Assembly: GCF_018408855.1 (NCBI RefSeq)
Contig: NZ_AP024322.1
Coordinates: 2,852,001 to 2,916,000 of the forward strand
Length of the DNA: 64,000 bases
Reading direction: 5' to 3'
Origin: Caballeronia sp. NK8
Lineage (GTDB): Bacteria; Pseudomonadota; Gammaproteobacteria; Burkholderiales; Burkholderiaceae
Part shown: piece by piece, positions 10,427 through 33,170 of the stretch
Numbering within the stretch: the first letter of the stretch is position 1
Layout: each line of letters begins with the position of its first letter
Translations under genes and position numbers: made by a program
Notes under the pieces: model-generated
Database searches by the model: none
Told to the model about the DNA's origin: nothing
The model's input: the letters and a program-made list of their open reading frames with translations, nothing else

Positions 10427-10465
10427 CCGAATAACCCCCTTTTCCCCAGCCTTATCCGTCGATGG
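10427..10465 (+). promoter_or_regulatory. Upstream element of flhB shared with flhF
   Basis: A 39-base block starting CCGAATAACCCC and ending in ATCC, two bases, CGATGG. The same block with the same length and mostly identical bases lies upstream of flhF (33132-33170, minus strand). It is 93 bases before the flhB start. Shared position and regulon suggest an early flagellar promoter, possibly FlhDC-dependent; that is inference. Confidence 0.55.
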
Positions 10466-10558
10466 CTGCTCGACGCCATCCGCAATAATCGCTTTCATCA
10501 AAAAGCGGCTTCGCGCCGCCCGCATGTGACAACTATGCAAGCAACGGAGTAAGGCCCG

Positions 10559-11767
10559 GTGGCAGAAGAAAGCGATCTCGAAAAAACCGAATCAGCCACT
10601 CCCAAGCGCCTGGAAAAGGCGCGGGAGGAAGGCCAGGTTGCGCGTTCGCGGGAACTCGCGTCATTCGCGCTGCTGGCGGCGGGATTTTTCGGCGTGTGGG
10701 GTTTGTCGGGGCCGATCAGCCAGCATTTGCAGTCGATCCTGCGCGGCGCGTTCACCTTCGACCACGCGACCGTGCTCGACACGCGCCAGATGATGATCGG
10801 CGCGGCGAACGCGGGCAAGGAAGGAATGTTCGCGGTGCTGCCGGTTCTCCTGCTCTCCGGTTTCGCCGCGCTCGCCGCGCCGATGGCGCTGGGCGGCTGG
10901 CTCATCACGACGAAACCGCTCGCGCCGAACTTCGGGCGCCTGAATCCGATCAGCGGTCTCGGCAAGATCTTTTCGGCGCAAGGGCCGGTTCAGCTCGGCA
11001 TGTCGATGCTGAAGACGATGGTCGTCGGCGGCATGGCGGGCTCGGCGATCTGGAGCCGCAAGGCCGAAGTGCTCGGCCTGCTGACGAAACCGCTCACGCT
11101 GGCGCTCGCCGACGCGATGCATCTGATCTTCGTGTGCTGCGGCATGGCGATCGGCGGGTTGTTTCTGGTCGCGGCCGTCGACGTGCCGTATCAGCTTTAC
11201 TCGCACGCGAAGAAGCTGCGCATGAGCAAGGAAGAAGTGAAGCGCGAGCACAAGGAAAACGAAGGCGATCCGCACATCAAGGGCAAGATCCGCTCGCAGC
11301 AGCGCGCGGCCGCGCGTCGCCGGATGATGCAGGCGATTCCGACCGCCGATGTGATCGTCACGAACCCGACGCACTTCGCCGTCGCGCTGAAGTACACCGA
11401 TGGCCAGATGCGCGCGCCGAAGGTCGTCGCGAAGGGCGTGAATCTGGTCGCGGGACGCATTCGCGAACTGGGCCGCGAGCACAACGTGCCGCTGCTCGAA
11501 GCGCCGCCGCTGGCGCGCGCGCTGTATCACAACGTCGAGATCAACCGCGAGATTCCGGGCGCGCTGTATGGCGCGGTCGCGCAGGTGCTGGCGTGGGTCT
11601 ACCAGCTCAAGCGCTACAAGGAAGATGGCGGCACGAAGCCGGACGAACCGTCCGATCTCGACGTGCCGAAGGAACTGGACAAGGGCGGCGTATCCGACGC
11701 CGACGCCGAACAGGAAGCCTCCGAGGCCCTGAACGGCGACAACACTGACAAGGGAGCCGCAGCATGA
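10559..11767 (+). CDS. flhB: FlhB, flagellar export apparatus switch protein
   Basis: 402 residues from a GTG start (MAEESDLEKTESATPKRLEK). The cytoplasmic N-terminal motif SATPKRLEKAREEGQVARS is followed by four hydrophobic segments and the C-terminal switch domain. The autocleavage motif NPTH is present with Asn at residue 269, the same number as in the Salmonella protein. FlhB switches export from rod/hook to filament substrates after self-cleavage. The C-terminal ~40 residues are acidic. The stop codon overlaps the flhA start (ATGA), so the two are translationally coupled. Confidence 0.97.
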   Translation: MAEESDLEKTESATPKRLEKAREEGQVARSRELASFALLAAGFFGVWGLSGPISQHLQSILRGAFTFDHATVLDTRQMMIGAANAGKEGMFAVLPVLLLSGFAALAAPMALGGWLITTKPLAPNFGRLNPISGLGKIFSAQGPVQLGMSMLKTMVVGGMAGSAIWSRKAEVLGLLTKPLTLALADAMHLIFVCCGMAIGGLFLVAAVDVPYQLYSHAKKLRMSKEEVKREHKENEGDPHIKGKIRSQQRAAARRRMMQAIPTADVIVTNPTHFAVALKYTDGQMRAPKVVAKGVNLVAGRIRELGREHNVPLLEAPPLARALYHNVEINREIPGALYGAVAQVLAWVYQLKRYKEDGGTKPDEPSDLDVPKELDKGGVSDADAEQEASEALNGDNTDKGAAA

Positions 11768-13872
11768 ACGCGCGCGCTGGATTTTTCGCCAAACGGCCCG
11801 ACGCGCTGGGCACGCAGAACTTGCGAGCCCTCGCTGGCCCGATCCTGATCTGCATGATCCTGGGCATGATGATTCTGCCCTTGCCCGCATTTTTGCTGGA
11901 CTTGCTGTTCACCTTCAACATCGCGCTGTCGGTGATGGTGTTGCTCGTCAGCATGTACACGCAAAAGCCGCTCGACTTCGCGGCGTTCCCGAGCGTGCTG
12001 CTGTTCTCGACGCTGCTGCGGCTGTCGCTGAATGTGGCGTCGACGCGTATCGTGCTGCTCGAAGGCCACACCGGCCCGGATGCGGCGGGCCAGGTGATCG
12101 AATCGTTCGGGCATTTTCTCGTCGGCGGAAATTTCGCGGTCGGTATCGTCGTGTTCGTGATTCTGATGATCATCAACTTCATGGTGATCACGAAGGGCGC
12201 GGGGCGGATCGCCGAAGTGGGCGCGCGCTTCACGCTCGACGCGATGCCCGGCAAGCAGATGGCCATCGACGCCGATCTGAACGCCGGCCTCATCAACGAG
12301 GAAACCGCGAAGAAGCGCCGTCAGGCCGTGGCGCAGGAAGCCGAGTTCTATGGTTCGATGGACGGCGCCAGCAAGTTCGTGCGCGGCGATGCGATCGCGG
12401 GCCTGCTGATCATGGTGATCAACGTGGTGGGCGGGCTGATCGTCGGCATGCTCCAGCACGACATGGACTTCGGGCACGCGGCGACCAACTACACACTGCT
12501 GACCATCGGCGACGGCCTCGTCGCGCAGATTCCGTCGCTCATCATTTCGACGGCGGCGGGCGTGATCGTATCGCGCGTCGCGACCGAGGAAGACATCGGC
12601 ACGCAACTGACGGGCCAGTTGTTCCAGAATCCGCGCGTACTGATGATCACGGGCGTGATCATCGGCATCATGGGTCTGATTCCGGGCATGCCGCACTTCG
12701 CGTTCATGCTGCTCGGCGGCGGCCTGATCTATGCCGCGCGCACGATGAACAAGCGCGCCGAAGCGAAGAAGAAGGCCAGCGCCGTCACCGATGTCACGCC
12801 GCTCGCGGCGAGCGCGGCGGCTGCATCGGCGGAAAATGCGGAAGCGAGCTGGGAAGATGTGTCGCTCATCGATCCGCTCGGGCTGGAAGTGGGCTATCGG
12901 CTGATTCCGCTCGTCGATCGCAACAGCGACGGCGAACTGCTCAAGCGCATCAAGGGCATTCGCAAGAAGTTCGCGCAGGAAATCGGCTTTCTGCCGCCGG
13001 TCATTCACATTCGCGACAATCTCGAACTTCGGCCGAACGGCTACCGGATCGCGCTGAAGGGCGTGGAAGTGGGCGTCGGCGAAGCGTTCCCGGGCCAGTG
13101 GCTCGCGATCAATCCGGGACAGGTGTCGGCCGCGCTGCCGGGCGCGCAGACGCAGGACCCGGCGTTCGGACTGCCGGCAGTGTGGATCGACACGAATCTG
13201 CGCGAACAGGCGCAGGTGTACGGCTACACCGTAGTCGATGCGAGCACGGTCGTCGCGACGCATTTGAATCATCTCGTCGTGACGCATGCGGCCGAGTTGC
13301 TCGGGCGTCAGGAAGTGCAGGCGCTGCTGGAGCGCATCGGCAAGGACACGCCGTCGCTCACGGACGATCTGGTGCCGAAGGTGCTGTCGCTCACGACGCT
13401 GCAAAAGGTGTTGCAGAACCTGCTCGACGAAAGCGTGCCGATCCGCGACATGCGTACGATTCTCGACGCGTTGCAGGAACACGCGCCGCGCACCTCCGAT
13501 TCGCACGACCTCACGGCGGCGGTACGACTGGCGCTGGGGCGCGCGATCACGCAGCAGTGGTATCCGGGCGCGGACGATCTGCAGGTGATGGGACTTGATC
13601 CGACGCTGGAGCGGGTGCTGTCGCAGGCGTTGTCGACCGGGGCGAATCCGGGGCTGGAACCGGGGCTTGCGCAGACGCTGATGAACTCGACGCAGAACGC
13701 GATCATGCGTCAGCAGAATCTGGGCTTGCCGCCGGTGCTGCTCGTGCAGCACTCGCTGCGTGCGATGCTGGCTCGCTTTCTCCGCAGAAGCCTGCCGCAG
13801 TTGAAGGTGCTGTCTTATGCGGAAGTGCCGGATACGCGAAATGTGAAGGTGGTGAATCTGATTGGCGCTTGA
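11764..13872 (+). CDS. flhA: FlhA, flagellar export gate protein
   Basis: 702 residues. The N-terminal half has about eight membrane segments with the FHIPEP-family region (FPSVLLFSTLLRLSLNVAST, KGAGRIAEVGARFTLDAMPG, MDGASKFVRGDAIAGLLIM). The C-terminal cytoplasmic domain includes ALPGAQTQDPAFGLPAVWI and ends in LPQLKVLSYAEVPDTRNVKV. FlhA forms the nonameric export gate with FlhB. flhF, often next in related genomes, does not follow; a convergent unknown gene starts at the next base. Confidence 0.97.
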   Translation: MNARAGFFAKRPDALGTQNLRALAGPILICMILGMMILPLPAFLLDLLFTFNIALSVMVLLVSMYTQKPLDFAAFPSVLLFSTLLRLSLNVASTRIVLLEGHTGPDAAGQVIESFGHFLVGGNFAVGIVVFVILMIINFMVITKGAGRIAEVGARFTLDAMPGKQMAIDADLNAGLINEETAKKRRQAVAQEAEFYGSMDGASKFVRGDAIAGLLIMVINVVGGLIVGMLQHDMDFGHAATNYTLLTIGDGLVAQIPSLIISTAAGVIVSRVATEEDIGTQLTGQLFQNPRVLMITGVIIGIMGLIPGMPHFAFMLLGGGLIYAARTMNKRAEAKKKASAVTDVTPLAASAAAASAENAEASWEDVSLIDPLGLEVGYRLIPLVDRNSDGELLKRIKGIRKKFAQEIGFLPPVIHIRDNLELRPNGYRIALKGVEVGVGEAFPGQWLAINPGQVSAALPGAQTQDPAFGLPAVWIDTNLREQAQVYGYTVVDASTVVATHLNHLVVTHAAELLGRQEVQALLERIGKDTPSLTDDLVPKVLSLTTLQKVLQNLLDESVPIRDMRTILDALQEHAPRTSDSHDLTAAVRLALGRAITQQWYPGADDLQVMGLDPTLERVLSQALSTGANPGLEPGLAQTLMNSTQNAIMRQQNLGLPPVLLVQHSLRAMLARFLRRSLPQLKVLSYAEVPDTRNVKVVNLIGA

Positions 13873-14844
13873 TTACGCCGACGCCTCGTTCAACTCCGGC
13901 TTCGATGTGTCGGAGATGTAGAGCCGAATGGGATTGCCCTCGTCGTCCAGTTCCGCCTTCGCGAGAAAGCGGATCGGGTCGGCTGAGGTCATCGCTTTTA
14001 CGTAGCGGTTGTTCGGGCGATTGAAAATCGGGTCGACCACGATGGCCGGGATGCGCGAGGTTGCGCCTTCCAGCGTGAGTCTGCATGCGCCTGTGGTCAT
14101 GTCGAATTGCGAGATGACGCCGACGTAGGGCTCGAGATGCTCCGTGACCGTGCCGGCATTTTGCGAGAAGGCGCGCTTGTGATCGGAGTCCAGTGTCATG
14201 AACTGCTTGCCTTCGGCGTAGAGGTCGATGCGTTGGCAGGAGTGGCCGATCGGGGACAGTGCCTGGCGTGCGGCGGGGCGTAGGGCGTCGGCGAGTTTGT
14301 TGGTGAGTGCTTTCAGTGTTTCGAAGTTCTGTTGATTGTGCTGCAGGGACTGCTGCAGCGCTTCGTTCATATGCTTCGATTGGTTCTGCAGCGCCTCATT
14401 CATGGACTTCGATTGGCTCTGCAGGGCGTGCAGCGCTTCGTTCATATACTTCGTTTGGCCCTGCAGGGCTTCACTTAGAAATTTCATTTGATCTTGATCG
14501 CGTCGAGAAAGTACATACTGAACAACGACAGCGAGCACAGCCCCGAATGCACCAGACCACAGGTCCCTGCTAGTCGCCATGCTTTTCACCATCGCGAGGA
14601 CTTCGAAGCAATGATGTTCGGCGACGGGAAGCGAAACCACACGAACATCGAGTGCATCGAGTTGAAGGGTGAGTCTACCCGTTGCAAGCGTGTTCGCGCA
14701 CAGCGCAAAGACAGAAGCAAAGCCCTGAATCGATACACCCAGCTGATTCAGATCTATCTCATGCGATGCAGCATCGTTGCCTTCGTATCGCACGCTGAGA
14801 ACGCAGAGGCAGACTTCGGAATTCGTATTGACAGCTTGCAGCAT
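13873..14844 (-). CDS. Unrecognised membrane-anchored coiled-coil protein
   Basis: 323 residues, not assigned to a known function. Residues 1-90 form a compact domain (HEIDLNQLGVSIQGFASVFA). One likely membrane helix follows at about 95-112 (LWSGAFGAVLAVVVQYVLS). Residues 122-170 are repeats of an x-M-N-E-A-L-Q unit with 11-residue spacing and one 14-residue step, predicting a coiled coil. The last ~110 residues are beta-rich (GTVTEHLEPYVGVISQFDMT). Base composition is lower in GC than the neighbouring flagellar genes, which suggests acquisition. The stop codon abuts the flhA stop on the other strand with no terminator. A sensor or defence role would be speculation. Confidence 0.7.
   Translation of the reverse strand: MLQAVNTNSEVCLCVLSVRYEGNDAASHEIDLNQLGVSIQGFASVFALCANTLATGRLTLQLDALDVRVVSLPVAEHHCFEVLAMVKSMATSRDLWSGAFGAVLAVVVQYVLSRRDQDQMKFLSEALQGQTKYMNEALHALQSQSKSMNEALQNQSKHMNEALQQSLQHNQQNFETLKALTNKLADALRPAARQALSPIGHSCQRIDLYAEGKQFMTLDSDHKRAFSQNAGTVTEHLEPYVGVISQFDMTTGACRLTLEGATSRIPAIVVDPIFNRPNNRYVKAMTSADPIRFLAKAELDDEGNPIRLYISDTSKPELNEASA
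14335..14481 (-). repeat. In-gene tandem repeat coding for MNEAL hendecads
   Basis: Four imperfect units of 33 bases (one of 42) encode FLSEALQGQTK, YMNEALHALQSQSK, SMNEALQNQSK and HMNEALQQSLQ. Such units can gain or lose copies and set the length of the predicted coiled coil. Confidence 0.8.
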
Positions 14845-14959
14845 TGTTGTTTGCTCCGCATGACATTCATATCGTCATGCTAAGCAAAGTGGGTGCATTC
14901 AGAAATCTGCCGAACGGACGACTTGCGCCGAATCTCGATCCGACGCAAGCCGCGAAGCC

Positions 14960-16348
14960 TCAACACTCCACGATATTCACCGCCAGCCCGCCGCGCGAAG
15001 TTTCCTTGTACTTGGTCTTCATATCCGCGCCCGTCTCTCTCATCGTCTTGATCACCGAATCCAGCGATACATAGTGAGACCCGTCGCCCCGCATCGCCAT
15101 GCGCGCGGCATTGACGGCTTTGACCGAACCCATCGCGTTGCGCTCTATGCACGGAATCTGCACCATCCCGCCGACCGGATCGCACGTCAGCCCGAGGTTA
15201 TGCTCCATGCCGATTTCCGCGGCATTCTCGACCTGCGCCGGTGTTCCGCCGAGCACCGCGGCCAGCGCGCCCGCCGCCATCGAACACGCGACGCCGACTT
15301 CGCCCTGACATCCGACTTCAGCGCCTGAGATGGAAGCATTCATCTTGTACAGAATGCCGATCGCCGCCGCCGTCAGCAGAAAGTCGATCACGCCTTGCGT
15401 GTTCGACCCCGGCACGAAGCGATCGTAATAGTGCAGCACCGCCGGAATGATGCCCGCCGCGCCATTGGTCGGCGCCGTGACGACACGTCCGCCGATCGCG
15501 TTCTCCTCGTTCACCGCGATTGCGTAGAGATTGATCCAGTCGATCATCGACAAAGGATCGCGCAGCGCCTGCTCCGGCTTGCCCGTCAGCGCCCGGTACA
15601 ACTGCGGCGCGCGCCGCTTCACCTGGAACGGCCCCGGCAAGTGCCCTTCCGCCGCCGGATTGCCGATACCGCACCCGCGCGCGACGCAATCCTGCATCAC
15701 GTCCCAGATACGCAGCAGGCCGCTGCGGATTTCGTCCTCGCTGCGCCACACGCGCTCGTTTTCCCACATCAGTTGCGCGATCGACTTGCCCGATTCCGTG
15801 CACATCTTCATGAGCTCGTCGCCGGTCAGGAACGGATACGGCAAATGCTCGTGCGCCGTCAGCACCGCCGTGTTCGCCGCGCCCGCCGTCACGACGAACC
15901 CGCCGCCAACCGACAGATACGTCGCCTCGCGCAGCAACGCGCCGTTCGCATCGAACGCGTGAAGCTTCATGCCGTTCGGATGCTCCGGCAACGCCTGCCG
16001 ATAGAACGCGATGTTCTCCTTGATCGTGAACGGAATCTTGCGCGTGCCGAGCAGCGCGAGCGTCTTCGACGCGCGCACGGCGTCCAGCCGCGCGACGATG
16101 CTCGACGCATCCACGGTATCCGGTGCGTCGCCCATCAGGCCGAGCATCACGCCGCGGTCGGTGCCGTGGCCTTTGCCCGTCGCGCCGAGCGAGCCGTAGA
16201 GCTCGCACTTCACCGATGCCGTCGAGTCCAGCAGCCCGTCCCGCTCGAGCCCTTGCGCGAACATCAGCGCGGCGCGCATCGGTCCGACGGTGTGCGAACT
16301 CGAAGGGCCGATGCCGATCTTGAAGAGGTCGAATACGCTGACTGCCAT
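14960..16348 (-). CDS. sdaA: L-serine dehydratase (serine ammonia-lyase), iron-sulphur type
   Basis: 462 residues, the usual single-chain length. The N-terminus has the family signature [20 protein letters not shown]. The three cysteines expected to hold a 4Fe-4S cluster lie in [17 protein letters not shown] and IPCIERN. The enzyme converts L-serine to pyruvate and ammonia. It follows the glycine cleavage genes on the same strand, so serine made from glycine can be deaminated. An alginate-lyase-like gene lies between it and gcvP, 21 bases upstream of sdaA. Confidence 0.96.
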
Positions 16349-16369
16349 GACTGCTCCTGCCTGTAAGAG

Positions 16370-17473
16370 TTAGCGCGCCGGCACCGGCAGACACACCGCG
16401 AGCCAGGCTGGCGGCGCCGGTGCGAGCCGCAACGCGACCGGCGTGTAGCGGCCGTCGAGACGTGCCGCGAGATGAAAGAGTTCAGCCGCGTTCTTCGGAT
16501 CCCACTGTCCCGAGAAACCCGGCAATCCGGCTTCGCGCCGCTTGGCGTCGAACGGCACCGACGATTTCACGAACTCATCGTGCGTCTTTGTGCCGAGCGC
16601 ATACGGCGTGAGCCAGTTGAGCGCTTCGGCGAGCGTCGCGCCCGACTGCGCGCGCTCCGGCAGCCAGTTGCGGTTGTGCCGCCGCGCGGAGAGGGCCGCT
16701 GTCACGAGCGGCTGAAGATCGTAAGTGACATAGCGCAGCGCGTCGCGCTCGGCGAAATCGACAGTCGATCCATCCGGCGCGATGTTGTCGCCGATATGCT
16801 CGACGAACAGCCGCTGCGCCGCGTTGATGAGCTTGCGGTCGTCGATCGTGAAAGCGCCCATCGCCACCAGCTTCACGCGATGACTTTGCCAGTTGTTCCG
16901 GTAATTGCCCGCGAGCGGCCGCGGCTGCTTGTCCATATCGGCGATATAACCGGTCACCATCTTCGTGATGAACGCGTTCGCCGCGTTGCGCGTCTTGACC
17001 GGCAAGGCGCTCGCCGTGAGGTCGTACGCGAGAATCAACGATTCGAAGTTCGTCTCGTCGATCGGGTTGAAGCTCGGCTGATAAGTCGTCGTCCAGGCGA
17101 GCAGGAAACGGTCGACGAGCCGCAGATAACGCTCGTCGCCGGTCGCGCGCCACGCGAGCGCGGCATCGCGCATCAGGCCGAGGTCTTTTTCCGCTTCGAT
17201 GCTTTCGTCGTAAATGCCTTCGTGCGGCAGCGTGCCCTCGGTGTGCAGCTTCGCGCGCGGCTTCGGCTGATCGCTCACATGCGATTGCACCATTTTCACG
17301 AGCGCCTTCACGCCGGGATCGGCATTGGTGCGCTCGCTCGTCTGCATCGCGGGCGCGGCGCAAAAATTCATCGCGGCCTGCGCGGACGATGCCGCGATCA
17401 GCATTGCGCCGAGCATCGCTCGCACCGCACGCACGCGGTTCGTCCCTTTCACCTCTCGCACCTTGAACGCCAT
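16370..17473 (-). CDS. Secreted alginate-lyase-family (PL5-like) protein
   Basis: 367 residues from the ATG at 17473, which has a GGGAG ribosome site; the frame is open 26 codons further upstream. A signal peptide is visible (VRAMLGAMLIAASSAQAAMN). The helical repeat pattern and the motif GNYRNNWQSHRVKLVAMGAF match the alginate lyase family, where the Asn-Asn and His-containing segment lies in the substrate groove. It probably acts in the periplasm on a uronic acid polymer, but the substrate cannot be read from sequence. A terminator after gcvP suggests separate expression or read-through. Confidence 0.8.
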   Translation of the reverse strand: MAFKVREVKGTNRVRAVRAMLGAMLIAASSAQAAMNFCAAPAMQTSERTNADPGVKALVKMVQSHVSDQPKPRAKLHTEGTLPHEGIYDESIEAEKDLGLMRDAALAWRATGDERYLRLVDRFLLAWTTTYQPSFNPIDETNFESLILAYDLTASALPVKTRNAANAFITKMVTGYIADMDKQPRPLAGNYRNNWQSHRVKLVAMGAFTIDDRKLINAAQRLFVEHIGDNIAPDGSTVDFAERDALRYVTYDLQPLVTAALSARRHNRNWLPERAQSGATLAEALNWLTPYALGTKTHDEFVKSSVPFDAKRREAGLPGFSGQWDPKNAAELFHLAARLDGRYTPVALRLAPAPPAWLAVCLPVPAR

Positions 17474-17536
17474 GTGTACTCCCTGTTTTGGCTTTTTGGT
17501 CCGGGGTGAGATGTTAGCTGTTCTGGAACGCGCCGC

Positions 17537-17571
17537 AAAACCGCCCGACAATGCTTTACGCTTTCGGGCGG
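17537..17571 (-). terminator. Terminator after gcvP
   Basis: On the minus strand CCGCCCGA and TCGGGCGG form an 8-base stem with a 15-base loop, followed by TTTTG. It lies about 30 bases after the gcvP stop. Confidence 0.75.
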
Positions 17572-17599
17572 TGCTCTCTCTCAGGTCCTGCGCGATACC

Positions 17600-20530
17600 T
17601 TACTCGTCCGCGTATTCCGATACCGGCACGCACGAGCACATCAGGTTGCGGTCGCCGTACGCATTGTCCGCGCGGCCGACCGGCGACCAGTACTTGCGCG
17701 TCACCAGCGACTTCAACGGATACGCTGCCGACTCGCGCGTGTACGTGTGCGCCCACGCATCCGACGTGACCACCGCCGCCGTGTGCGGCGCATGCTTCAG
17801 CACGTTGTCTTCGCGATCGGCGCGCCCTTCTTCGACCGCGCGGATTTCCTCGCGGATCGCGATCATCGCGTCGATGAAGCGGTCGAGTTCTTCCTTCGAT
17901 TCCGACTCCGTCGGCTCGACCATCAGCGTGCCGGGCACGGGGAAGCTCATCGTCGGGGCGTGGAAACCGTAGTCGATCAGGCGTTTCGCGACGTCTTCCA
18001 CCGAGATACCGCTCGATTCCTTGATCGGCCGCACGTCGAGAATGCACTCGTGCGCGACGAGTCCGCCCGCACCGCTGTACAGCACCGGATAGTGCGGCGC
18101 GAGACGCTTCGCGACATAGTTCGCGGCGAGAATCGCGCTTTCGGTGGCGGCGGTAAGACCTTGCGCGCCCATCATCGCAATGTACATCCACGAGATCGGC
18201 AGGATCGCGGCCGAGCCATAAGGCGCGGACGACACCGCGCCGATGCCCGCCTCATCGCGCTTGTAGCCGGTGGACGCCTGATTCGGCAGGAACTTCGCCA
18301 GATGCGCGCCGACCGCGACCGGACCGACGCCCGGTCCGCCGCCGCCGTGCGGAATGCAGAACGTCTTGTGCAGATTCAGGTGCGACACGTCGCCGCCGAA
18401 CTGGCCGGGCGCGCACAGGCCGACCATCGCGTTCATGTTCGCACCATCGACATACACCTGGCCGCCATGCGAATGGACGATGTCGCAGATCTCGCGGACG
18501 TTGCGCTCGAACACGCCGTGCGTCGACGGATACGTGATCATGATCGCCGCGAGATTGGCGGAATGCTTCTCCGCCTTCGCCTTCAGATCGTCGATATCGA
18601 CGTTGCCGTTCGCATCGCACGCGACGACGACGACCTGCATGCCCGCCATCTGCGCCGACGCCGGATTGGTGCCGTGCGCGGACGCCGGAATCAGACACAC
18701 ATTGCGATGCCCTTCGCCGCGCGACTCGTGATAAGCGTGGATGATGAGCAGGCCCGCGTATTCGCCTTGCGATCCCGCATTCGGCTGCAGCGACACCGCC
18801 GCGTAACCGGTGCACGCGACGAGCATCTGTTCGAGCTGATCGATCATCGTGCGATAGCCGGCCGTCTGCTCGGCGGGCGCGAACGGGTGAATCTGCGCGA
18901 ACTCGGGCCACGTCACCGGCAGCATTTCAGAGGTCGCGTTGAGCTTCATCGTGCAGGAGCCGAGCGGGATCATCGTGCGATCGAGCGCGAGGTCCTTGTC
19001 GGCGAGGCTGCGCAGATAGCGCAGCATTTCGTGTTCGGAATGATGGCGATTGAAAACCGGATGCGTCAGGTATTCGCTCGTGCGGTGCAGTTCGGCCGGC
19101 AGCGGATCGGACGCGGCCTGATCGAGCGCGTCGATATCGAACGTTTCGGTCTTGCCCGCGACTTCCGCGAACAGCGCGAAGAGCTTGAGCAGGTCGTCGC
19201 GCGTGGTGGTTTCATCGAGCGATACGCCCACTTGCGTTGCGCTCACGTGGCGCAGATTGACATGCGCGGCGTATGCAGCCTGATGCAGCCCGGTCGTGTT
19301 CGCGCCGCTGTCGATCGTGACCGTGTCGAAGAACGTGTCGTTGGCGATGGTATAGCCGAGCTTCTTCACGCCCGCTGCGAAAATCGATGCCACGCGGTTC
19401 ACGCGCAGTGCGATCGTCTTCAGACCGCGCGGGCCGTGATAGACGGCGTACATGCTCGCCATGATCGCGAGCAGCGCCTGCGCCGTGCACACGTTCGACG
19501 TCGCCTTTTCGCGGCGAATATGCTGTTCGCGCGTTTGCAGCGCGAGACGCAGCGCGGAGTTGCCCTGCGCGTCGACGGTCACGCCGACGAGACGCCCCGG
19601 CATCTGGCGCTTGAATTCATCGCGCACGGCCATGTACGCCGCGTGCGGGCCGCCGAAGCCGACCGGCACGCCGAAACGCTGCGTATTGCCGATCGCGACA
19701 TCCGCGCCCCATTCGCCCGGCGGCGTGATGAGCGTCAGCGCGAGCAGATCCGCCGCCGCGACGACATGGCCGCCCGCAGCGTGAATCGCTTCGGCCAGCG
19801 CGCGATAGTCTCGCACATCGCCGTTCGCGCCCGGATACTGCAGCAGCACGCCGAACGCGTTCGCGCTCGCGGCGTCGGCGGCCGGGCCGACCTTGACTTC
19901 GATGCCCGCGGGCTTCGCGCGCGTCTTCACCACTTCGATGGTCTGCGGCAGCACGTCATCGGCGACATAGAACACGTTCGATTTCGGCTTGCCGACGCGT
20001 TGCAGCAGCGTCATCGCTTCGGCGGCGGCGGTGGCTTCGTCGAGCAGCGAGGCGTTCGCCATCGCGAGGCCAGTCAGGTCCATGATCATCTGCTGGAAAT
20101 TCAGCAGCGCTTCCAGACGCCCTTGCGAAATTTCCGGCTGATACGGCGTGTAGGCCGTGTACCACGCCGGATTTTCGAGCACGTTGCGCAGGATCACCGC
20201 CGGCGTGTGCGTGCCGTAGTAGCCCTGGCCGATATAAGTTCGAAACACCAGATTCTCGTCCGCCAGCTTGCGCAATGCCGCGAGCGCTTCCGCCTCGCTC
20301 TTGGGCTGCGTGAACGCGCCGAGCGGCAGCGTTTCCTTGCGGCGGATCGATTCAGGAATCACCGCGTCGATGAAGGCCGCGCGTGACGCGAAACCGAGCG
20401 CGTCGAGCATGGCGCGCTGGTCCGCGTCATCGGGGCCGATGTGCCGCTCGGCGAATGCGTCGTGGCATTCGAGCGCGGCGAGTGACAGGGAGGTGCGGTT
20501 CATCAGGCGATCCGGGTGTTCGAGCTTCAT
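17600..20530 (-). CDS. gcvP: Glycine dehydrogenase (decarboxylating), P-protein
   Basis: 976 residues from the ATG at 20530 ([20 protein letters not shown]), which has an AGGA site nine bases upstream; an ATG 15 codons earlier is less likely. The two fused homologous halves are both present. The PLP lysine lies in [16 protein letters not shown] at about residue 722. P-protein decarboxylates glycine and passes the aminomethyl group to the lipoyl arm of GcvH. It is the third gene of the gcvT-gcvH-gcvP operon under the glycine riboswitch. Confidence 0.97.
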
Positions 20531-25896: not shown

Positions 25897-25919
25897 TGCC
25901 TTTTTCGTGCGTCAAATAA

Positions 25920-25955
25920 AAAACCCTGCGCCACTAAACGCAGGGTTTTGCTTTG
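25920..25955. terminator. Bidirectional terminator between rep and the cytochrome c gene
   Basis: AAAACCCTGCG (25920-25930) and CGCAGGGTTTT (25939-25949) form a perfect stem with an 8-base loop, with A-rich DNA on the left and T-rich on the right. It serves the convergent genes on both sides. Confidence 0.9.
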
Positions 25956-25971
25956 TGGCCCGGCGAAAACG

Positions 25972-26865
25972 TTACTTGGCCGCGTTCACCATGTAATCGA
26001 CGGCGGCCTTCACGTCCGCATCCGGTGCGTTCGATCCGCCCTTCGGCGGCATCGCGCCCTTGCCGTGCAGCGCGTAGTTGTAGACGGTGTCCATCGGTTC
26101 CTTGAGGCGGGGCGCCCATGCGGCCTTGTCGCCGAACTTCGGCGCGTTGAGCACGCCGGCTGCGTGACAGGCCTGGCAGACTTGCTCGTAGAGCGCCTTG
26201 CCGGCCTGGGCGGCATCGGCGCTTTGGGCGCCCGCTGCCGGCGCCGCCGCCTGCGGCACGGACGCCAGCGCTGCGACGGCCGCAGCCGCTTGAGCGTTCT
26301 CGTTGGCGCTCGCGCCTGCCGGGGCCGCTGCCGCACCCGGCGCGCTCGCGCTTGCCGCCGCGCCCGAAGCGGGTTGAGCCGGCTCTGCCAGTTTGCCGCC
26401 GCTGCCATTCGCCATATAGACGACCGCGCGCGCGATTTCGAAGTCGCTGTAGTCGTCGGGATTGGTGCCGCCGCGCGCGGGCATGGCGCCTTTGCCGTTG
26501 AGCGCGTTGTGCAGGAGCGTGTCGTAACCTTCGCCGATGCGCGCCGCCCACGCGCCGGCATCGCCAAACTTGGGCGCGCCGGCCGTGCCCGTTGCGTGAC
26601 AGGCCGAGCACACGGCCTTGAAGACTTCCTCGCCGGATTTGTAGACGCGCGGCGCGTTGGCGTCGCGGACATCGACCTGCGCGGCGGGCGCGATGCGTTC
26701 CTTCACCGATTGCTCGATGTCCGTGCCCGCGCCGACGCGCGTGGAATTGTTCACGTACACCGCGAGCAGGATGATGATGGCGACCGGGATGCCGAATCCC
26801 GCGATGATCGCGGCGATGAGTTGGCCGGGCGTCTTGATCGGGGCTCCGTGGGGTGCTTCGCTCAT
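25972..26865 (-). CDS. Membrane-anchored di-haem cytochrome c (c5-like)
   Basis: 297 residues. An N-terminal membrane helix lies at about 17-38 (LIAAIIAGFGIPVAIIILLA). Two c-type haem sites follow, CSACH (86-90) and CQACH (230-234), each with a GKGAMP segment supplying the likely Met ligand (M128 and M272). The domains are repeats of each other joined by an Ala/Pro-rich linker (about 160-220). It is expected to carry electrons in the periplasm to a terminal oxidase; the partner is unknown. Confidence 0.92.
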   Translation of the reverse strand: MSEAPHGAPIKTPGQLIAAIIAGFGIPVAIIILLAVYVNNSTRVGAGTDIEQSVKERIAPAAQVDVRDANAPRVYKSGEEVFKAVCSACHATGTAGAPKFGDAGAWAARIGEGYDTLLHNALNGKGAMPARGGTNPDDYSDFEIARAVVYMANGSGGKLAEPAQPASGAAASASAPGAAAAPAGASANENAQAAAAVAALASVPQAAAPAAGAQSADAAQAGKALYEQVCQACHAAGVLNAPKFGDKAAWAPRLKEPMDTVYNYALHGKGAMPPKGGSNAPDADVKAAVDYMVNAAK

Positions 26866-27178
26866 GCTTGTCTCGTCTCCCGTTTTTTGGTGTGAGTCGG
26901 TTCAGTGACAGCGTGACAGCTACCGCATTGCGCTTGGGCGCGCCTTGGGGAAAGGCACGGTCGATTATAGACGGAACGCTTAACTGTCGGCGCGGGCTGG
27001 CCGACACGGTGGAGCGGGCGTTTACCCGAATCGTGTGATGCTTGCGGCGATGTTTAGCGCGATGCGTCCGTCCCCATGCGATGGACGAAGTCACGGAAAA
27101 CAGGTATCCTCTCGGATTCGCATGGGCCTTGCAGCCGCCTTTCGGTGTGCTTCTTTCTTCGCAAGGCATCCCTCCGAT
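26866..27178. other. Intergenic region between cytochrome c and tRNA-Arg
   Basis: 313 bases without a convincing gene. It carries the divergent upstream regions of the cytochrome gene and the tRNA. Only the tRNA promoter at 27082-27110 could be picked out. Confidence 0.6.
27082..27110 (+). promoter_or_regulatory. Sigma-70-like promoter of tRNA-Arg
   Basis: TGGACG at 27082-27087 and TATCCT at 27105-27110 are spaced 17 bases apart, with four of six consensus bases in each box. The start of transcription would be about 60 bases before the mature tRNA. Confidence 0.5.
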
Positions 27179-27254
27179 GCGCCCGTAGCTCAATGGATAG
27201 AGTACTGCCCTCCGAAGGCAGGGGTTGCTGGTTCGATCCCAGCCGGGCGCGCCA
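27179..27254 (+). tRNA. tRNA-Arg, anticodon CCG
   Basis: A full cloverleaf can be drawn: acceptor GCGCCCG pairs with CGGGCGC, the D-stem begins GCTC, the anticodon stem CTGCC pairs with GGCAG around the loop CTCCGAA, and the T-arm is GCTGG-TTCGATC-CCAGC. The CCA end is encoded. The anticodon CCG reads the arginine codon CGG. Confidence 0.97.
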
Positions 27255-27275
27255 AATCTTCCCCCTGACGCGCGA

Positions 27276-28283
27276 TCATTCTGCGGCCGCTCCCGCGATC
27301 ACCGTCCCCCACCCAAACCCCATCCCCGCCAGCCACCGTCTGTAAGCCACCGCCATCCGATCACATCGCTGATGCAACTCCGCATCCAGATCGAGCGGCA
27401 GACGTTGCGGCCATTGCGACTCCACGATCGGCGTGTCCTGCATCAGGATCTCCATATTGAAGTCGTAAAGCTCCTGGTCGCTGTGCGTCGAATCATCCTC
27501 GTGAATGGAAACGAGCCACGCGCGCGTTTCCGTCTGCGTCACCGGCGACGCCGCCAGCATGATGTGCAACGCGCCCTGCCCGCCCGACGCCATCTTCGTG
27601 AGACTCGCGATCAACGGCCGCTTCACGCGATACACATAGTCGATCATCGCGCCGCCGCCTTGTCCCGGAATGCCCGCGGGCTGCCAGTATCGACATTGCC
27701 GCGCTTCGAGTCCTCCATCGGCAGTCTGCACGACGTCGTAGTCCGGCACTTCCGTATGCGCCTCTTCGCCGAGAATCCCGACATGCACGAACGAGAAGTG
27801 CGCCATATCCAGAAAGTTCTCGACCACGCGCGGCGCCGATGACCTCACCGTCTGCGGCGCAAGATTGATGCGCCGGCCGCCCGCGATCTCGGCTTCGGGA
27901 AAGACATCGAGCGCATGCGCGGGCTCGCCGAAGCACATCCACACGACGCCGTACTTTTCCTCGCTGATGAAGGTCGTCGCGCACGCACGCTTCGATGGAC
28001 GCAACGACGGATTCGATGGAATCCGCAAGCATTGCCCTTCGATGTCGTAACGCCAGCCGTGATACGGACACACGATCTGATCGCGCATCACGTGTCCGAG
28101 CGACAACTGCGCCCCGCGATGCGGACAGTAATCGCGCCACACATGCGCCGCGCCGATACTGTCGCGCCACACGACGATGCGCTCATCGGCAACGATGAAC
28201 CCGCGCGCGCCGCCGTCGGGCACGTCCTCGCTATTGCAGATCGGCAGCCATTCGCCTGCCAGGGAAAGCATTCCTTCGCTCAT
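27276..28283 (-). CDS. Rieske non-haem iron oxygenase, alpha subunit type
   Basis: 335 residues. The Rieske 2Fe-2S ligands are C53, H55, C72 and H75 (DYCPHRGAQL, VCPYHGWRYD). The mononuclear iron site appears as FLDMAHFSFVHVGILG with two His. The C-terminal domain is shorter than in large dioxygenase subunits, as in vanillate demethylase-like and related aromatic oxygenases. It probably hydroxylates or demethylates an aromatic or similar compound with a separate reductase, which is not encoded nearby, so the substrate is unknown. Confidence 0.88.
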   Translation of the reverse strand: MSEGMLSLAGEWLPICNSEDVPDGGARGFIVADERIVVWRDSIGAAHVWRDYCPHRGAQLSLGHVMRDQIVCPYHGWRYDIEGQCLRIPSNPSLRPSKRACATTFISEEKYGVVWMCFGEPAHALDVFPEAEIAGGRRINLAPQTVRSSAPRVVENFLDMAHFSFVHVGILGEEAHTEVPDYDVVQTADGGLEARQCRYWQPAGIPGQGGGAMIDYVYRVKRPLIASLTKMASGGQGALHIMLAASPVTQTETRAWLVSIHEDDSTHSDQELYDFNMEILMQDTPIVESQWPQRLPLDLDAELHQRCDRMAVAYRRWLAGMGFGWGTVIAGAAAE

Positions 28284-28474
28284 CGCAGTGAATCAGAAAT
28301 AGAAGTCCGAAAGCCGTTCTTACACGAAACACAGCGTCTTCGCAAAACGTTGCAAAATAGCGGATCGCTCGCTCGGTGCAACTCGATGCCACTCCACTCA
28401 ACCGATGCCATGCGACGGGGCCGCAGGTCATAACAGCAAGATAAAAGCAAGAAATCACCACCCAGGGGTTCAGT

Positions 28475-29569
28475 ATGGAGCAGGCGCATCAACCGGCACG
28501 CCGGGCTTATGCCTTCGCATGGTCCGAGCACCGGAATCCCGAACGCGAGCAGGCCACGCTGCGGGTCTGGATGGGAGCGGCGGTTCTTCTGGCCTACGGC
28601 ATTTTTACCTGGCTCCGCCCGTCGCACGATGCATTGCTGGTCGCACGCATCGTCGCACTCTATGTGTCCTACGGCGCGGTTACGCTGTTGATCGTCAGCC
28701 GCATGGCGTCTCCTTCGGAGAAGCGTCTCACCGTCACGACCATCGCCGATCAATCGATTCTCGGACTCGCGCTCGCCGCGGGCGGCGCCATCGCGCTGCC
28801 GCTCATCTGGGTGATCTTCTGGTTTCTTATCGGCTCGGGATGCCGTTACGGCAAGCGCACGCTCGCCGTTTCGTGCACGACGGCGCTCGTCATCGTCGTG
28901 GCGCTGGGAATCTGGCAGCCGTGGTGGCACGCGAATCTGCCCGCCGCGATCGGTCTGGGGCTGAGCGTGCTGGGCGCATCGGTTTATCTGAGCGTGCTCG
29001 TCGACCGGCTCGGCAGCGCGAATCGCGATCTCGCGCGTCAGGCATCGACCGATCCGCTCACGGGACTATCGAACCGATACGCGCTCGAACATATCGTCGA
29101 TCGCGCGATGAACGCACGCGAAACCGATGGCAATCAAGCCACCGCGCTCCTGCTCATCGATCTCGATGGCTTCAAGGAAGTCAACGACACTTACGGCCAC
29201 GCCGTCGGCGACATGCTGCTGCAATCGTTCGCGCAATCGCTCGAAAAGCGCATGCGCAAGACGGACACCATCGCGCGGCTGGGCGGCGACGAGTTCGTCG
29301 TGCTCGCGCATCACGTGCGCGACCGGGCGGCCGTGCTCGCAGTGGCCGACAGCATCCACTCCGTGCTGAACGCGCTCACGTCGGTGCAGGAGCGGCCGGT
29401 GTCGGTGTCGGCGAGCATCGGCGCGTGTCTGCTTTCCTGTGCGACGGCCGCGCATCAGTCCGGCATGACCGCCGTGCTGCGCGCCGCCGACCGCGCGATG
29501 TACCGCGCCAAAAGTCTCGGCGAAGGCAAAACCGTCTTCGCCGAGACGCGGGACTTCGAAACGAACTGA
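28475..29569 (+). CDS. Membrane-bound diguanylate cyclase (GGDEF)
   Basis: 364 residues. Residues ~25-185 contain about five or six hydrophobic segments of a membrane sensor region. The catalytic domain follows (STDPLTGLSNRYALEHIVD) with an intact GGDEF at 270-274. An inhibitory I-site RKTD lies five residues before it, so product inhibition is expected. It makes cyclic di-GMP from GTP and may feed the YcgR flagellar brake encoded in this window. It is convergent with fliA with only one base between stop codons. Confidence 0.94.
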   Translation: MEQAHQPARRAYAFAWSEHRNPEREQATLRVWMGAAVLLAYGIFTWLRPSHDALLVARIVALYVSYGAVTLLIVSRMASPSEKRLTVTTIADQSILGLALAAGGAIALPLIWVIFWFLIGSGCRYGKRTLAVSCTTALVIVVALGIWQPWWHANLPAAIGLGLSVLGASVYLSVLVDRLGSANRDLARQASTDPLTGLSNRYALEHIVDRAMNARETDGNQATALLLIDLDGFKEVNDTYGHAVGDMLLQSFAQSLEKRMRKTDTIARLGGDEFVVLAHHVRDRAAVLAVADSIHSVLNALTSVQERPVSVSASIGACLLSCATAAHQSGMTAVLRAADRAMYRAKSLGEGKTVFAETRDFETN

Positions 29570-29570
29570 A

Positions 29571-30302
29571 TCAGGCCTCGACGCTCGTCCACGCCTGTTC
29601 GCGCAGCTTCACGCGCAGACGGGCGACCGCCTGGCTGTGCAACTGGCACACGCGCGACTCGCTCACTTCCATCACCGCGCCGATTTCGCGCAGGTTCAGC
29701 CCGCGTTCGTAATAGAGGCTCATCAGGAGCTTCTCGCGCTCGGGCAGCTTGTCGATCGCTTCGATCAGCGCACCGCGCAGACTGTCGTCGAGCAGCGCGG
29801 ACAACGGGTCCGAACGGTCGACGCAGTAGCGGTCGAGGAACGGTTCGTCGTCGGCGGAGCGGTCGAAGTCTTCGTAGTAGATCAGCTGGCTGCCGTGCAG
29901 ATCCTGAAGCATCGACTGATACTCGGGAAGCGGCAAGTTCATGTGCTCCGCGATCTCCGTCTCGCTCGCGGAGCGGCCGAGGTTCTGCTCGACCTTGTGC
30001 ACCGCCGATTCCACTTCGCGCGAGGTCTTGCGCATGCTGCGCGGCAGCCAGTCGTTGGCGCGCAGCTCGTCGAGCATCGCGCCGCGAATGCGCTGGCTCG
30101 CATACGTTTCGAATTGCGCGCCCTGATCTTCCTTGTAGCGGCTCGCCGCGTCCATCAGGCCGATCATGCCGGCCTGGATGAGATCGTCGAGATCGACGCT
30201 CGCCGGCATCTTGGCGACGAGCTGAAGCCCCAGCCGGCGAACGAGCGGTGCATATTTCGTCAGCACGTCGGACTGTGAGAGTTTGCCTTGGGCGTTATAC
30301 AT
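29571..30302 (-). CDS. fliA: RNA polymerase sigma-28 factor FliA
   Basis: 243 residues from the ATG at 30302 (MYNAQGKLSQSDVLTKYAPL); a GTG three codons upstream is possible, but a GGTG site lies seven bases before the ATG. Regions 2 (LDDLIQAGMIGLMDAASRYK, FETYASQRIRGAMLDELRAN), 3 and 4 (LPEREKLLMSLYYERGLNLR, EVSESRVCQLHSQAV) are complete. FliA directs transcription of late flagellar and chemotaxis genes, such as flgM here. It lies downstream of flhG on the same strand. Confidence 0.97.
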   Translation of the reverse strand: MYNAQGKLSQSDVLTKYAPLVRRLGLQLVAKMPASVDLDDLIQAGMIGLMDAASRYKEDQGAQFETYASQRIRGAMLDELRANDWLPRSMRKTSREVESAVHKVEQNLGRSASETEIAEHMNLPLPEYQSMLQDLHGSQLIYYEDFDRSADDEPFLDRYCVDRSDPLSALLDDSLRGALIEAIDKLPEREKLLMSLYYERGLNLREIGAVMEVSESRVCQLHSQAVARLRVKLREQAWTSVEA

Positions 30303-30320: not shown

Positions 30321-31250
30321 TCACATCGACGCCGTGCTGCTCATTGCAAAGTCGTGAAGCGCAACCGCACGATGCGTCGCCTCCCGCCCGCCCTGTTCAG
30401 AGTCGCCAACCGGAATTCGCGCGTCTGCCTGGCCGTCCGCCGCGCGCATATAAGGCGCGGGGCGCATCGGCCAGTGGAGGAGCTCCGCCGCTATCGCGCG
30501 GTAGTCGCGCGCCGCGGCCGTGGCCGGGAACGCTTCGACTGCGCAGCGTGAGAGATCCTTCGCCCGAGCGACGCGCGCATCCTCGGACACATACCCTGCC
30601 TGCACGAGCGACACGGCCAGATACCGGCTCGCGACGCCCGACAGGTTGTCGAACGCGACCGCCGCGTCGGCCGGGTTCTGCACGTGATTGATGAGCACGC
30701 GGAACTGGCCGATCGCATGGGCGTAGTGCAGACGCTTCATGCACGCATACGCCTCGGTGATCGCCGACGCGGCCACCCGCGTCACAATGAGAAAGTCATG
30801 CGCCTGCGCCGCGAGGCTCGACAGCGCGCCGTGGCGGTCCAGTTGCGCATCGATCAGCACGATGTCCGCCGGACCATCGAGCAATGCGCGGCACTGCGCG
30901 GCATCGTGGCTGATGCGCTCGTCGCGCGGCGCGGCGATCAGCGAGAAACCGAACGGCGTGCGCTCGACGACATCCGCGAGCGCGCGGCGGCCGGACATCG
31001 CCGCAGCGAGCGCGCCTTGGTCGGACAGGCCCAGCATGCGGCTCACCGATGCCGAATCGCGATGCTCGTCGATCACGAGCACGTCCTTGCCATGCACGGA
31101 CAGCGCCGCGCCGAGATTCACCACCGCCGACGAGCAGCCGATGCCCGCCGGACCGCCCGCAACCGCCACCACGCGCGAACCGGCACGCGTGAGGAGCCGT
31201 CGCAGACCTTCCGCCTGGTCGAGCACGAGCTTATCCAAAGTGCACCCCAT
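30321..31250 (-). CDS. flhG: FlhG-type MinD/ParA-like protein with altered Walker A
   Basis: 309 residues from the ATG at 31250, overlapping the end of flhF by 20 bases; a GTG at 31268 is also possible. The N-terminal helix DQAEGLRRLL (D11, Q12, A13, L16, R17) matches the FlhG motif that stimulates FlhF GTPase. The Walker A region reads AGGPAGIGCSSAVVNL, so the lysines of the usual KGGVGKT are missing. FlhG limits flagellar number; whether this form binds ATP is doubtful. Position between flhF and fliA makes the identity firm. Confidence 0.88.
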   Translation of the reverse strand: MGCTLDKLVLDQAEGLRRLLTRAGSRVVAVAGGPAGIGCSSAVVNLGAALSVHGKDVLVIDEHRDSASVSRMLGLSDQGALAAAMSGRRALADVVERTPFGFSLIAAPRDERISHDAAQCRALLDGPADIVLIDAQLDRHGALSSLAAQAHDFLIVTRVAASAITEAYACMKRLHYAHAIGQFRVLINHVQNPADAAVAFDNLSGVASRYLAVSLVQAGYVSEDARVARAKDLSRCAVEAFPATAAARDYRAIAAELLHWPMRPAPYMRAADGQADARIPVGDSEQGGREATHRAVALHDFAMSSTASM

Positions 31251-33024
31251 GCATTTCGGTCGTGGCACGCGCCGACAAAGCGGACAGCAGCGCCGGCACT
31301 TCCTCGTCGTGCGGCACGAACGGCGAGCCGTCGCGCGGAATGCAGAACGCGCTCTTGATGAGAAACCGCTTGGTCGCGACGTATAGGTTCTCCGGCACCT
31401 TCTGGCCGGTCGACACGTAATGCACGGGCAGCTTGTAGCGGATCACCGTATCGAGCACGCCGCCGAGATTGGTCGCCTCATCGAGCTTGGTGAGGATGCA
31501 GCCCGCGAGCGGCGGCTGATCCGGCGCGCTCTTGTACGCCTGCACGACTTCGTTGAGCGTGTCGCCGTGGCTGGTCGCGTTGAGCAGCAGGATGCGCTGC
31601 ACCGGTTGACCCGCGCCGCACAGCATCGCGATCTGGTCCGAAACCATGCGATCGCGCTGGCTCATGCCGATCGTGTCGATCAGCACGATATGTTTGTTGC
31701 GCAGCTCGGACAGCGCGAGCTGCAGGTCGGCGGCGTCTTTCACCGCGTGGACCGAGACGCCGAGAATCTTGCCGAAGATGCGCAGTTGCTCGTGCGCGCC
31801 GATCCGGTAGCTGTCGGTCGTGAGCAGCGCGACCTTGCTCGCGCCGAAGCGCATCACGCAGCGCGCCGCGAGCTTCGCGGTGGTCGTCGTCTTGCCGACG
31901 CCCGTCGGGCCCATCAGCGCGAACACGCCGCCGCGCTCCATCAGCGCGTCTTCGCTGTCCATCACCGGAATATTCGTTTCGAGCACCTGCTGCACCCATT
32001 CCAGCGCGCCTTCCACGCTTTCCATCTCCGGCATGTTGTCGACGACCATGCGGACGAGCTGCGCGGAAAAGCCGGCTGCGAAGAGACGCTTGGTCAGCGC
32101 GCCGCCCGTCGCGTTGCGGCGCTGGCGCTCGCCCCAGAGCAAGCCGGAGAAGTGCTCTTCCATCATCGAGCGCATCGACGACAGCTCGTTCATCACTGTT
32201 TCGTTGACCACCTGTTCCATGCGCGCGCGGATCGCTTCGGTCACGACCGCAGCCGCGTTCGCGGGCAGACCTTCGAAAGCGCCTTCCGGCGCGGCGGGCG
32301 CGGCGTTCGTGGCCGGTGCTTCGGCGTGCGGCGCGCTCGCGTTGATCTTCTGCGCGGCGCGACGCGCGGCGACTTGCGCGGCTTCGCGCGCCCAGTCGGG
32401 CGTTTCGACCTTCGATTGCACCGGCGCCTGAACTTCGGGCGCGCGAGTCGCTTGTGCCTGAGCTTGCTGGCGCAACGCGTACTTGCCCGTTTCCGGCGTC
32501 TTTTCGGCGCGCGTTTCCTGCCGCGCTACCGGCACCGGCACGCCCATGCCACGCGCAATGGCGGCGGACGCCGAGAGCGGACGGTTCGACGGCATCGTCG
32601 CCTGTTGCGCGATCCGCTTCGCGTGCTCGATCAGCCAGGGATTCGAATCGGCCATCGTGCGCGGCGCTTCGTCGTCGGCTTCTTGTTCGTGCGTGAGCGC
32701 GTCTTCATCGTCGGCGTCGGTGTTCGCGCCGAAGACCGAGGAAAACACGTCGCCGCTCGCGTAAGGATTCGCGGCGGCTTGCCTGGCCGGCAGCGCGGCC
32801 GCCGCAGCAGCCAGCGCGGCGCGCGACGTGCCCGGCGAGCGCACGGCCTGCTCATTCGCGGCGGGCGAGATCGACGCGATATCGCTGTCCGCGACGCCGA
32901 CGATCTCGACGGAGCCATCATCCAGCGTGCGATTGGACAGCACCACGGCATCGGGTCCGAGCGCTTCACGAACCTGGCGCAGTGCGTCGCGGCTGTTCGC
33001 GCCGATGAATTTACGAATGTTCAA
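31231..33024 (-). CDS. flhF: FlhF, SRP-type GTPase controlling flagellar placement
   Basis: 597 residues if translation starts at the TTG at 33024 (MNIRKFIGANSRDALRQVRE), which matches the family start and has a GGGGG site five bases upstream. An ATG at 33081 would add 19 residues. The N-terminal B domain is followed by a long Ala/Pro/Gln-rich linker, then the N and G domains with Walker A FALMGPTGVGKTTTTAKLAA, DTIGMSQRD and ILTKLDEATNLG. FlhF brings export parts to the cell pole. flhG overlaps its end. Confidence 0.94.
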   Translation of the reverse strand: MNIRKFIGANSRDALRQVREALGPDAVVLSNRTLDDGSVEIVGVADSDIASISPAANEQAVRSPGTSRAALAAAAAALPARQAAANPYASGDVFSSVFGANTDADDEDALTHEQEADDEAPRTMADSNPWLIEHAKRIAQQATMPSNRPLSASAAIARGMGVPVPVARQETRAEKTPETGKYALRQQAQAQATRAPEVQAPVQSKVETPDWAREAAQVAARRAAQKINASAPHAEAPATNAAPAAPEGAFEGLPANAAAVVTEAIRARMEQVVNETVMNELSSMRSMMEEHFSGLLWGERQRRNATGGALTKRLFAAGFSAQLVRMVVDNMPEMESVEGALEWVQQVLETNIPVMDSEDALMERGGVFALMGPTGVGKTTTTAKLAARCVMRFGASKVALLTTDSYRIGAHEQLRIFGKILGVSVHAVKDAADLQLALSELRNKHIVLIDTIGMSQRDRMVSDQIAMLCGAGQPVQRILLLNATSHGDTLNEVVQAYKSAPDQPPLAGCILTKLDEATNLGGVLDTVIRYKLPVHYVSTGQKVPENLYVATKRFLIKSAFCIPRDGSPFVPHDEEVPALLSALSARATTEMHGVHFG

Positions 33025-33131
33025 ACTTGCCCCCGATGAGGTGAGACTGCGATCTTTAGCCAGCGGGCTCACTCGATTCATTGCGATGCCCGCTTTTCAG
33101 TGAGGCCATTATTGCGAACTTCGCCTTTTGC

Positions 33132-33170
33132 CCATCGCTGGATAAAGGGTGAGAAAAAGGGGTATTTCGG
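33132..33170 (-). promoter_or_regulatory. Upstream element of flhF shared with flhB
   Basis: Read on the minus strand the block starts CCGAAATACCCC and ends ATCC, two bases, GCGATGG. It has the same 39-base length and mostly the same bases as 10427-10465 before flhB. It lies 50 bases before the possible ATG and 107 before the preferred TTG start of flhF. The rest of 33025-33334 holds nothing else recognisable. Confidence 0.55.

Follow-up and report, generated by a model that had tools for sequence, protein, structure and literature searches.

A putative FlhDC box before flhB and flhF of Caballeronia sp. NK8, with probable promoter duplication and operon fission

Introduction

FlhDC is the master switch of early flagellar genes, and the FlhDC box is the site, about 45 bp long, of the FlhD4C2 activator. 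In Escherichia coli, sites of about this length precede the class 2 promoters of flgA/flgB, flhB, fliE/fliF and fliL, and sites of similar length lie before the equivalent genes of Caballeronia sp. NK8, where a 64,000-nucleotide stretch of the genome (‘the window’; contig NZ_AP024322.1, positions 2,852,001 to 2,916,000) carries a 45-bp element before flhB and again, on the opposite strand, before flhF. FlhDC boxes are reported to consist of two 16-bp inverted half-sites with a spacer of 10-12 bp (PMC9962212), and the E. coli fliL, flhB and flgA loci are reported as FlhDC targets mapped by chromatin immunoprecipitation (PMC4183435). In Burkholderia glumae, flhBAFG and fliA are reported to be co-transcribed, and flhF to be FlhDC-dependent (PMC3885665). 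Caballeronia has the same genes and master regulator, and a box before flhB is found in related genera; however, whereas the B. glumae genes form one co-transcribed unit, here fliA, an flhG-like gene and flhF lie on the other strand, from 15.7 kb past flhA, with a box of their own. The shared element is very probably an FlhDC box of class 2 flagellar promoters, a known kind, and the flhF promoter looks, from its sequence, like a duplicate of the flhB promoter. Taken jointly, a putative FlhDC box and an flhF promoter that arose as a duplicate of that of flhB when an ancestral operon split make a reading to which we give high confidence. Among the titles and abstract openings that were searched, no account was found of the flhF promoter or its duplication.

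The same element precedes flhB and flhF

Each copy combines a box with a -10-like hexamer:

10421..10465, plus strand: putative FlhDC box of the flhB promoter, 45 bp, of which the original prediction held the right-hand 39 bp
10484..10489, plus strand: AATAAT, putative sigma-70 -10 hexamer of flhB, 18 bp past the box
33132..33176, minus strand: putative FlhDC box of the flhF promoter, 45 bp
33108..33113, minus strand: AATAAT, putative -10 hexamer of flhF, 18 bp past the box

The two 45-mers (CATCTACCGAATAACCCCCTTTTCCCCAGCCTTATCCGTCGATGG at flhB; CATCAGCCGAAATACCCCTTTTTCTCACCCTTTATCCAGCGATGG at flhF) are identical at 33/45 positions in an ungapped alignment. The original prediction had reported gap-free alignment of the blocks at 10427-10465 (plus) and 33132-33170 (minus), which are indeed found there and agree at 29/39 positions, counted by eye; the element is real, but 39 bases are too few, as it begins six bases earlier, at CATC. 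Likeness also resumes past the element: after 18 poorly conserved bases (7/18 identical) comes AATAAT, and both this hexamer and its distance from the box are the same in the two copies. The predicted spacings of 93 bases before flhB and 50-107 before flhF are correct, with 93 bases from the box to the flhB GTG (10559), 107 to the flhF TTG (33024) and 50 to an in-frame upstream ATG (33081). Two short blocks may match fortuitously in a long window, or belong to a repeat scattered through the genome, but such an origin is scarcely credible: the best other ungapped match to the flhB 45-mer on either strand of the window reaches 25/45, against 33/45 for the flhF copy; of the candidates scored in the 9.2-Mb genome, none besides the seven flagellar sites exceeded 17.4 bits; and 37/37 FlhF loci of named Caballeronia and relatives have the 45-mer in front of flhF, followed at 18 nt by AATAAT (23 distinct 45-mers), despite diverging flanks.

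Related sites precede other flagellar genes

Beyond flhB and flhF, five sites were found in the genome, before flgB/flgA, fliE/fliF, fliL, fliP and flgK. The first of them is in the window:

7912..7956, plus strand: third putative FlhDC box, intergenic, with flgA (plus) on one side and a rod-protein gene (minus), taken as flgB, on the other
7974..7979, plus strand: TAGAAT, putative -10 hexamer of flgA, 17 bp past the box
8042..9307, plus strand: flgA, with a ChapFlgA match

The other four lie in a flagellar region just outside the window (L069), before fliF (divergent from fliE), fliL, fliP and flgK, genes named by Pfam, and were first detected with a position weight matrix (PWM) that already contained the flgB/flgA site. 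The distance from the 45-mer to a -10-like hexamer is 18 bp at flhB, flhF, fliL, fliP and flgK (5/7 sites) and 17 bp at flgA (TAGAAT) and fliF (GATAAT); in all seven the hexamer matches TATAAT at 4 or 5 of 6 positions. Aligned by MAFFT, the seven sites and eight flhB promoters of other genomes need no gap over 74 columns. The flgB/flgA site is weak against the flhB/flhF consensus (8/23 mismatches, no better than chance matches there); its support is its position and its match to the E. coli consensus.

The sites were also sought in three scans. A corrected whole-genome pattern, loosened after the flgB/flgA site was known, gave 13 matches with up to three mismatches (flhB and flhF with none, flgB/flgA with three, and ten others), versus two for a reversed control pattern. 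As a more independent check, a 69-bp model was built from the flhB and flhF sites and their orthologues only; run on 321,210 bases of the same genome (the window, further stretches and loci from earlier searches, with overlaps possible), it scored flhF at 87.6, flhB at 82.2, fliL at 23.2, flgK at 17.9 and fliP at 16.2, and everything else at 7.5 or less. Profile R1, of 15 rows (the seven sites and eight flhB orthologues), was run on the whole 9.2-Mb genome and gave the seven sites 28-56 bits and the next match 17.4 bits, with 150 of 4,405 first-look candidates scored. All 7/7 matches above 17.4 bits precede flagellar genes; as all seven were training rows and 150/4,405 candidates were scored, this result speaks for specificity only. 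Of the weak R1 matches, C1:114635 and C4:1637527 were inspected in open reading frame lists, which place neither before a recognisably flagellar gene. The original prediction holds in that no comparable score appears at random places among the candidates examined, and in that the pattern recurs before fliE/fliF and fliL, as well as flgB/flgA, fliP and flgK; motA gave none, no site being reported in the flhD-flhC-motA region (L070).

The element resembles E. coli FlhDC boxes

In flagellar DNA of E. coli K-12 (17,003 bases), a 69-bp model of the seven sites ranked fliL (9.1), flhB (6.1) and flgA (4.2) first to third, with the next place at 0.9; these three were judged to be FlhDC boxes by their fit to the published consensus. 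Their -10-like hexamers (GATAAT, CATCAT and TACAAT, respectively) stand 17 bp past the 45-mer, compared with 17-18 bp in Caballeronia. Against the E. coli consensus (AAYGSSNNAAATAGCG-N10-12-inverse) the Caballeronia sites match at 15-20 of 28 positions, and those of flhF, flgA, fliL, flgK and fliF at 18-20 (shuffle fractions 0 to 0.028). Inverted half-sites are legible by eye, the outer parts as CATC...CGATGG and the inner as GAATAA or GAAATA...TTATCC; the Caballeronia half-site reads CATC-N2-CCGAAWWA or GAATAACC where that of E. coli reads AAYGSSNNAAATAGCG. Unlike those of E. coli, the Caballeronia sites have C or G runs flanking a central A or T run, and there are extra sites before fliP, flgK and flhF; none was found before fliA, the R1 search of the genome giving no box nearer to that gene. 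With the sigma-28 (FliA) class 3 promoters they share a location at flagellar genes, but they consist of a 45-bp box and an AATAAT -10. Target genes and layout agree well with FlhDC boxes, and the sequence in part, and the element is filed as a putative FlhDC box. The early-flagellar promoter class first proposed for this lineage, as one distinct from sigma-28 sites, is supported as a class, but not as a lineage-specific one, because it matches the E. coli FlhDC box and class 2 promoters.

At its centre the box has about 3-5 consecutive A or T between C or G runs (CCCCAAATCCCC, GGGGAAAACCCC), at 10440-10443 and 33154-33158 of the window and also in the middle of the other five sites. This arrangement is perhaps a bending signal.

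R1 matches at E ≤ 0.001 occur in 30/60 family genomes, that is, in 29/34 with FlhC versus 1/26 without (Fisher p 1e-10), the sole R1-positive genome without an FlhC match (G038) being 70% complete. In 26 of the 30 R1-positive genomes the match lies, by position, directly before flhB. A PWM of the Caballeronia sites scores at least 19 before flhB in 27/30 family loci (the genome under study counted); of the exceptions, L102 reaches 8.3 where the box is expected, and no such match occurs in L091 or L093, which by eye show a variant and then GATAATGCC before flhB. In 15/30 flhB upstream regions (L075-L104) the stretch separating the box from the -10 contains TTGAC, which, at about 8 bp from the -10, is too near to serve as a -35.

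Several results pull the other way. Ungapped self-complementarity covers 12-22 positions and at none of the seven sites exceeds shuffles (fractions 0.10 to 0.98), which leaves the inverted repeat as a visual reading. The flhB (15/28) and fliP (16/28) sites do not match the E. coli consensus above shuffles, and the flgA and fliF sites are not in the best 18 rows of the flhB/flhF-only scan. In E. coli, the fliE/fliF box came ninth in a 45-bp scan and outside the best ten of the 69-bp scan, and R1 found no site at E ≤ 1. Five of the 34 FlhC-bearing genomes have no R1 match, and eight R1 rows derive from eight of the family genomes scored. Co-occurrence of FlhC and R1 is itself weak evidence, because 25/26 FlhC-less genomes have no FlhB match of at least 46% identity either. 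Symmetry no higher than in shuffles, the consensus matches at flhB and fliP that are likewise not above shuffles and the R1-positive, 70%-complete genome without FlhC would also suit a site for another activator (FleQ-like, quorum-sensing or a nucleoid protein) that merely resembles an FlhDC box; such an activator is nevertheless quite unlikely, given that length and -10 distance are close to those of E. coli FlhDC promoters, that the target genes overlap, that flhDC-motA is in the genome and that B. glumae flhF is reported as FlhDC-dependent (PMC3885665).

The flhF promoter as a probable duplicate of the flhB promoter

The start of flhF could be placed in 26 of 30 family FlhF loci; in the four left out (L130-L133) the N terminus was not found. 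In 16/26, flhF begins before the flhA stop, the overlap being 4 bases in 15 loci and, on calculation, 7 in one, and the highest score within 330 bp (234 bp in one) is at most 1.9, on which ground the idea that the flhF box was an ancestral internal promoter was dropped. In the remaining 10/26, flhF is uncoupled from an intact flhA and a box is present, detected by R1 in all ten; these are the four sampled genomes of the same genus as NK8 and three each of genera g13 and g20. Two of them (G040 and G020) still have flhA 293 and 358 bp upstream of flhF, with the box between, while the ‘gap -4’ before flhF of G013 is an flhA remnant rather than intact flhA.

When flhB and flhF upstream regions of these ten genomes were compared by blastn, nine gave an alignment of 76-139 columns (E 8e-9 to 4e-31) that covers the box and the -10 and continues into the leader. 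In the 45 bases past the -10 alone, the two are alike beyond shuffles in 7/10 genomes (p ≤ 0.012). The closest box pair, in G034, agrees at 43/45 positions. In the NK8 genome the next best box is that of flgK for flhB (26/45) and that of fliL for flhF (25/45); the flhB and flhF copies are more alike than either is to the other five, on the proposed reading because the flhF promoter is a duplicate.

A second line of evidence is what appears to be left of flhA in front of flhF:

33021..33042, minus strand: apparent relic of the 3' end of the ancestral flhA (ACCTCATCGGGGGCAAGTTTGA), abutting flhF and running into its TTG start

Against the flhA 3' ends of three operonic relatives, this remnant has a local score of 21 (over 90 bp of compared sequence), as against a maximum of 15 in 500 shuffles. 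It consists of ACCTCATCGGGGGCAAGT before TTGA, which by this reading would be both the flhF start and the former flhA stop, and its GGGGG may still be a ribosome-binding site. The bases before flhF resemble flhA 3' ends above all 500 shuffles in six genomes (G000, which is NK8, G030, G013, G034, G020 and G051) and at p 0.006 and 0.008 in G040 and G055, so that the remnant is supported in 8/10 genomes; in G013 it is recognisable as protein (43% identity over 44 codons, E 4e-4).

Some observations count against duplication. Box and -10, which are constrained, contribute to the blastn E-values; in G055 the flhB and flhF upstream regions do not align at the box; likeness in the leader taken by itself falls short of significance in G030, G040 and G055; and so does the match to flhA in G009 and G047 (p 0.06). 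B. glumae fliA, moreover, is reported as possibly having its own promoter (PMC3885665). Convergence of the two boxes without any promoter being copied, under strong selection towards an optimal FlhDC site, would suit the constraint on box and -10, the G055 and leader results, the 18-bp gap being only 7/18 identical in NK8 and another pair there, fliL and flgK, agreeing at 31/45 versus 33/45 for flhB and flhF. It is nonetheless rather unlikely, as the likeness continues beyond the -10, with leaders more alike than shuffles in 7/10 genomes, reaches 35-38 bp upstream of the box in G013 (139 columns, 81%, E 4e-31) and G040, attains 43/45 in G034 and is not approached by the next best NK8 boxes for flhB and flhF.

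On an FlhB tree the box-bearing genera require two changes, and 4% of 200 bootstrap trees group them to one side of a branch; the tree is compatible with one origin, or with one gain and one loss, without demonstrating either. For the duplication itself, a more specific history has a fair probability in our judgement: the flhB promoter may have been copied before flhF inside flhBAFG-fliA, in an ancestor that Caballeronia shares with two related genera, leaving a fragment of flhA, and the spare FlhDC promoter may then have let the operon break and be inverted or displaced, with fliA and the late genes staying under FlhDC. That the two copies are probably duplicates of one promoter was beyond what the original prediction could reveal.

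In two genomes of genus g15 (G015 and G052; loci L180 and L186) an R1 site lies between non-overlapping flhB and flhA, with a variant box before flhB by eye. The flhB and flhA upstream regions match over only 51 columns (E 0.014) in G015 and 53 columns (E 0.002) in G052; the site is possibly a second case of an internal FlhDC promoter being gained.

Genes around the two copies

The flagellar genes of the two halves are these:

10559..11767, plus strand: flhB, GTG start, TIGR00328 above cut-off
11764..13872, plus strand: flhA, overlapping flhB, TIGR01398 above cut-off
31231..33024, minus strand: flhF, TTG start, MNIRKFIG, TIGR03499 above cut-off
30321..31268, minus strand: flhG-like MinD/ParA-family gene, overlapping flhF; matches below cut-offs, named flhG by position
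29571..30302, minus strand: fliA (sigma-28), 18 bp after the flhG-like gene if ATG is the start

Thus flhB-flhA on the plus strand is opposed to fliA, the MinD-like gene in the flhG position and flhF on the minus strand, the last three overlapping or up to 18 bp apart. The roughly 16 kb from flhA to fliA (13873-29570) separate the two halves of the presumed former operon and encode at least a DUF7946 protein, a Rieske oxygenase and, by eye, a GGDEF-like frame. The genome has flhD-flhC-motA (region L070) and, in all, four strong FlhC matches, at C1:123849, C2:703491, C5:459758 and C7:317000 (L070, L072, L074 and L073, respectively), plus two weaker ones; the C1 copy is the one within flhD-flhC-motA, and the C5 and C7 proteins are nearly identical.

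Discussion

By analogy with E. coli and B. glumae, FlhDC on the box would replace a -35 element and recruit sigma-70 polymerase to the AATAAT 18 bp downstream. The flhB copy would drive the early (class 2) operon flhBA, and the flhF copy would drive flhF, the flhG-like gene and fliA; sigma-28 would therefore be under FlhDC control, with the flhF copy as the step from FlhDC to sigma-28. On the simplest account of its history, the flhB promoter would have been copied before flhF within the operon, after which the piece of flhA would decay and the halves separate. FlhDC binding and activation, use of the -10 hexamers, duplication as the cause of the likeness and the order of events are what we infer from these comparisons.

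The promoter class itself is very probably a known one; what deserves attention is the probable duplication of the promoter, together with operon fission. For the Burkholderiaceae, in which the enterobacterial consensus fits poorly, the sites give a usable FlhDC-box profile, with which class 2 operons become predictable from sequence. They also offer a readable case of operon fission, from the intact FlhDC-dependent operon of a related species, through a promoter between flhA and flhF (G040 and G020), to halves that lie apart; in genomes of this last kind, the extra promoter would hold the sigma-28 gene under the master regulator.

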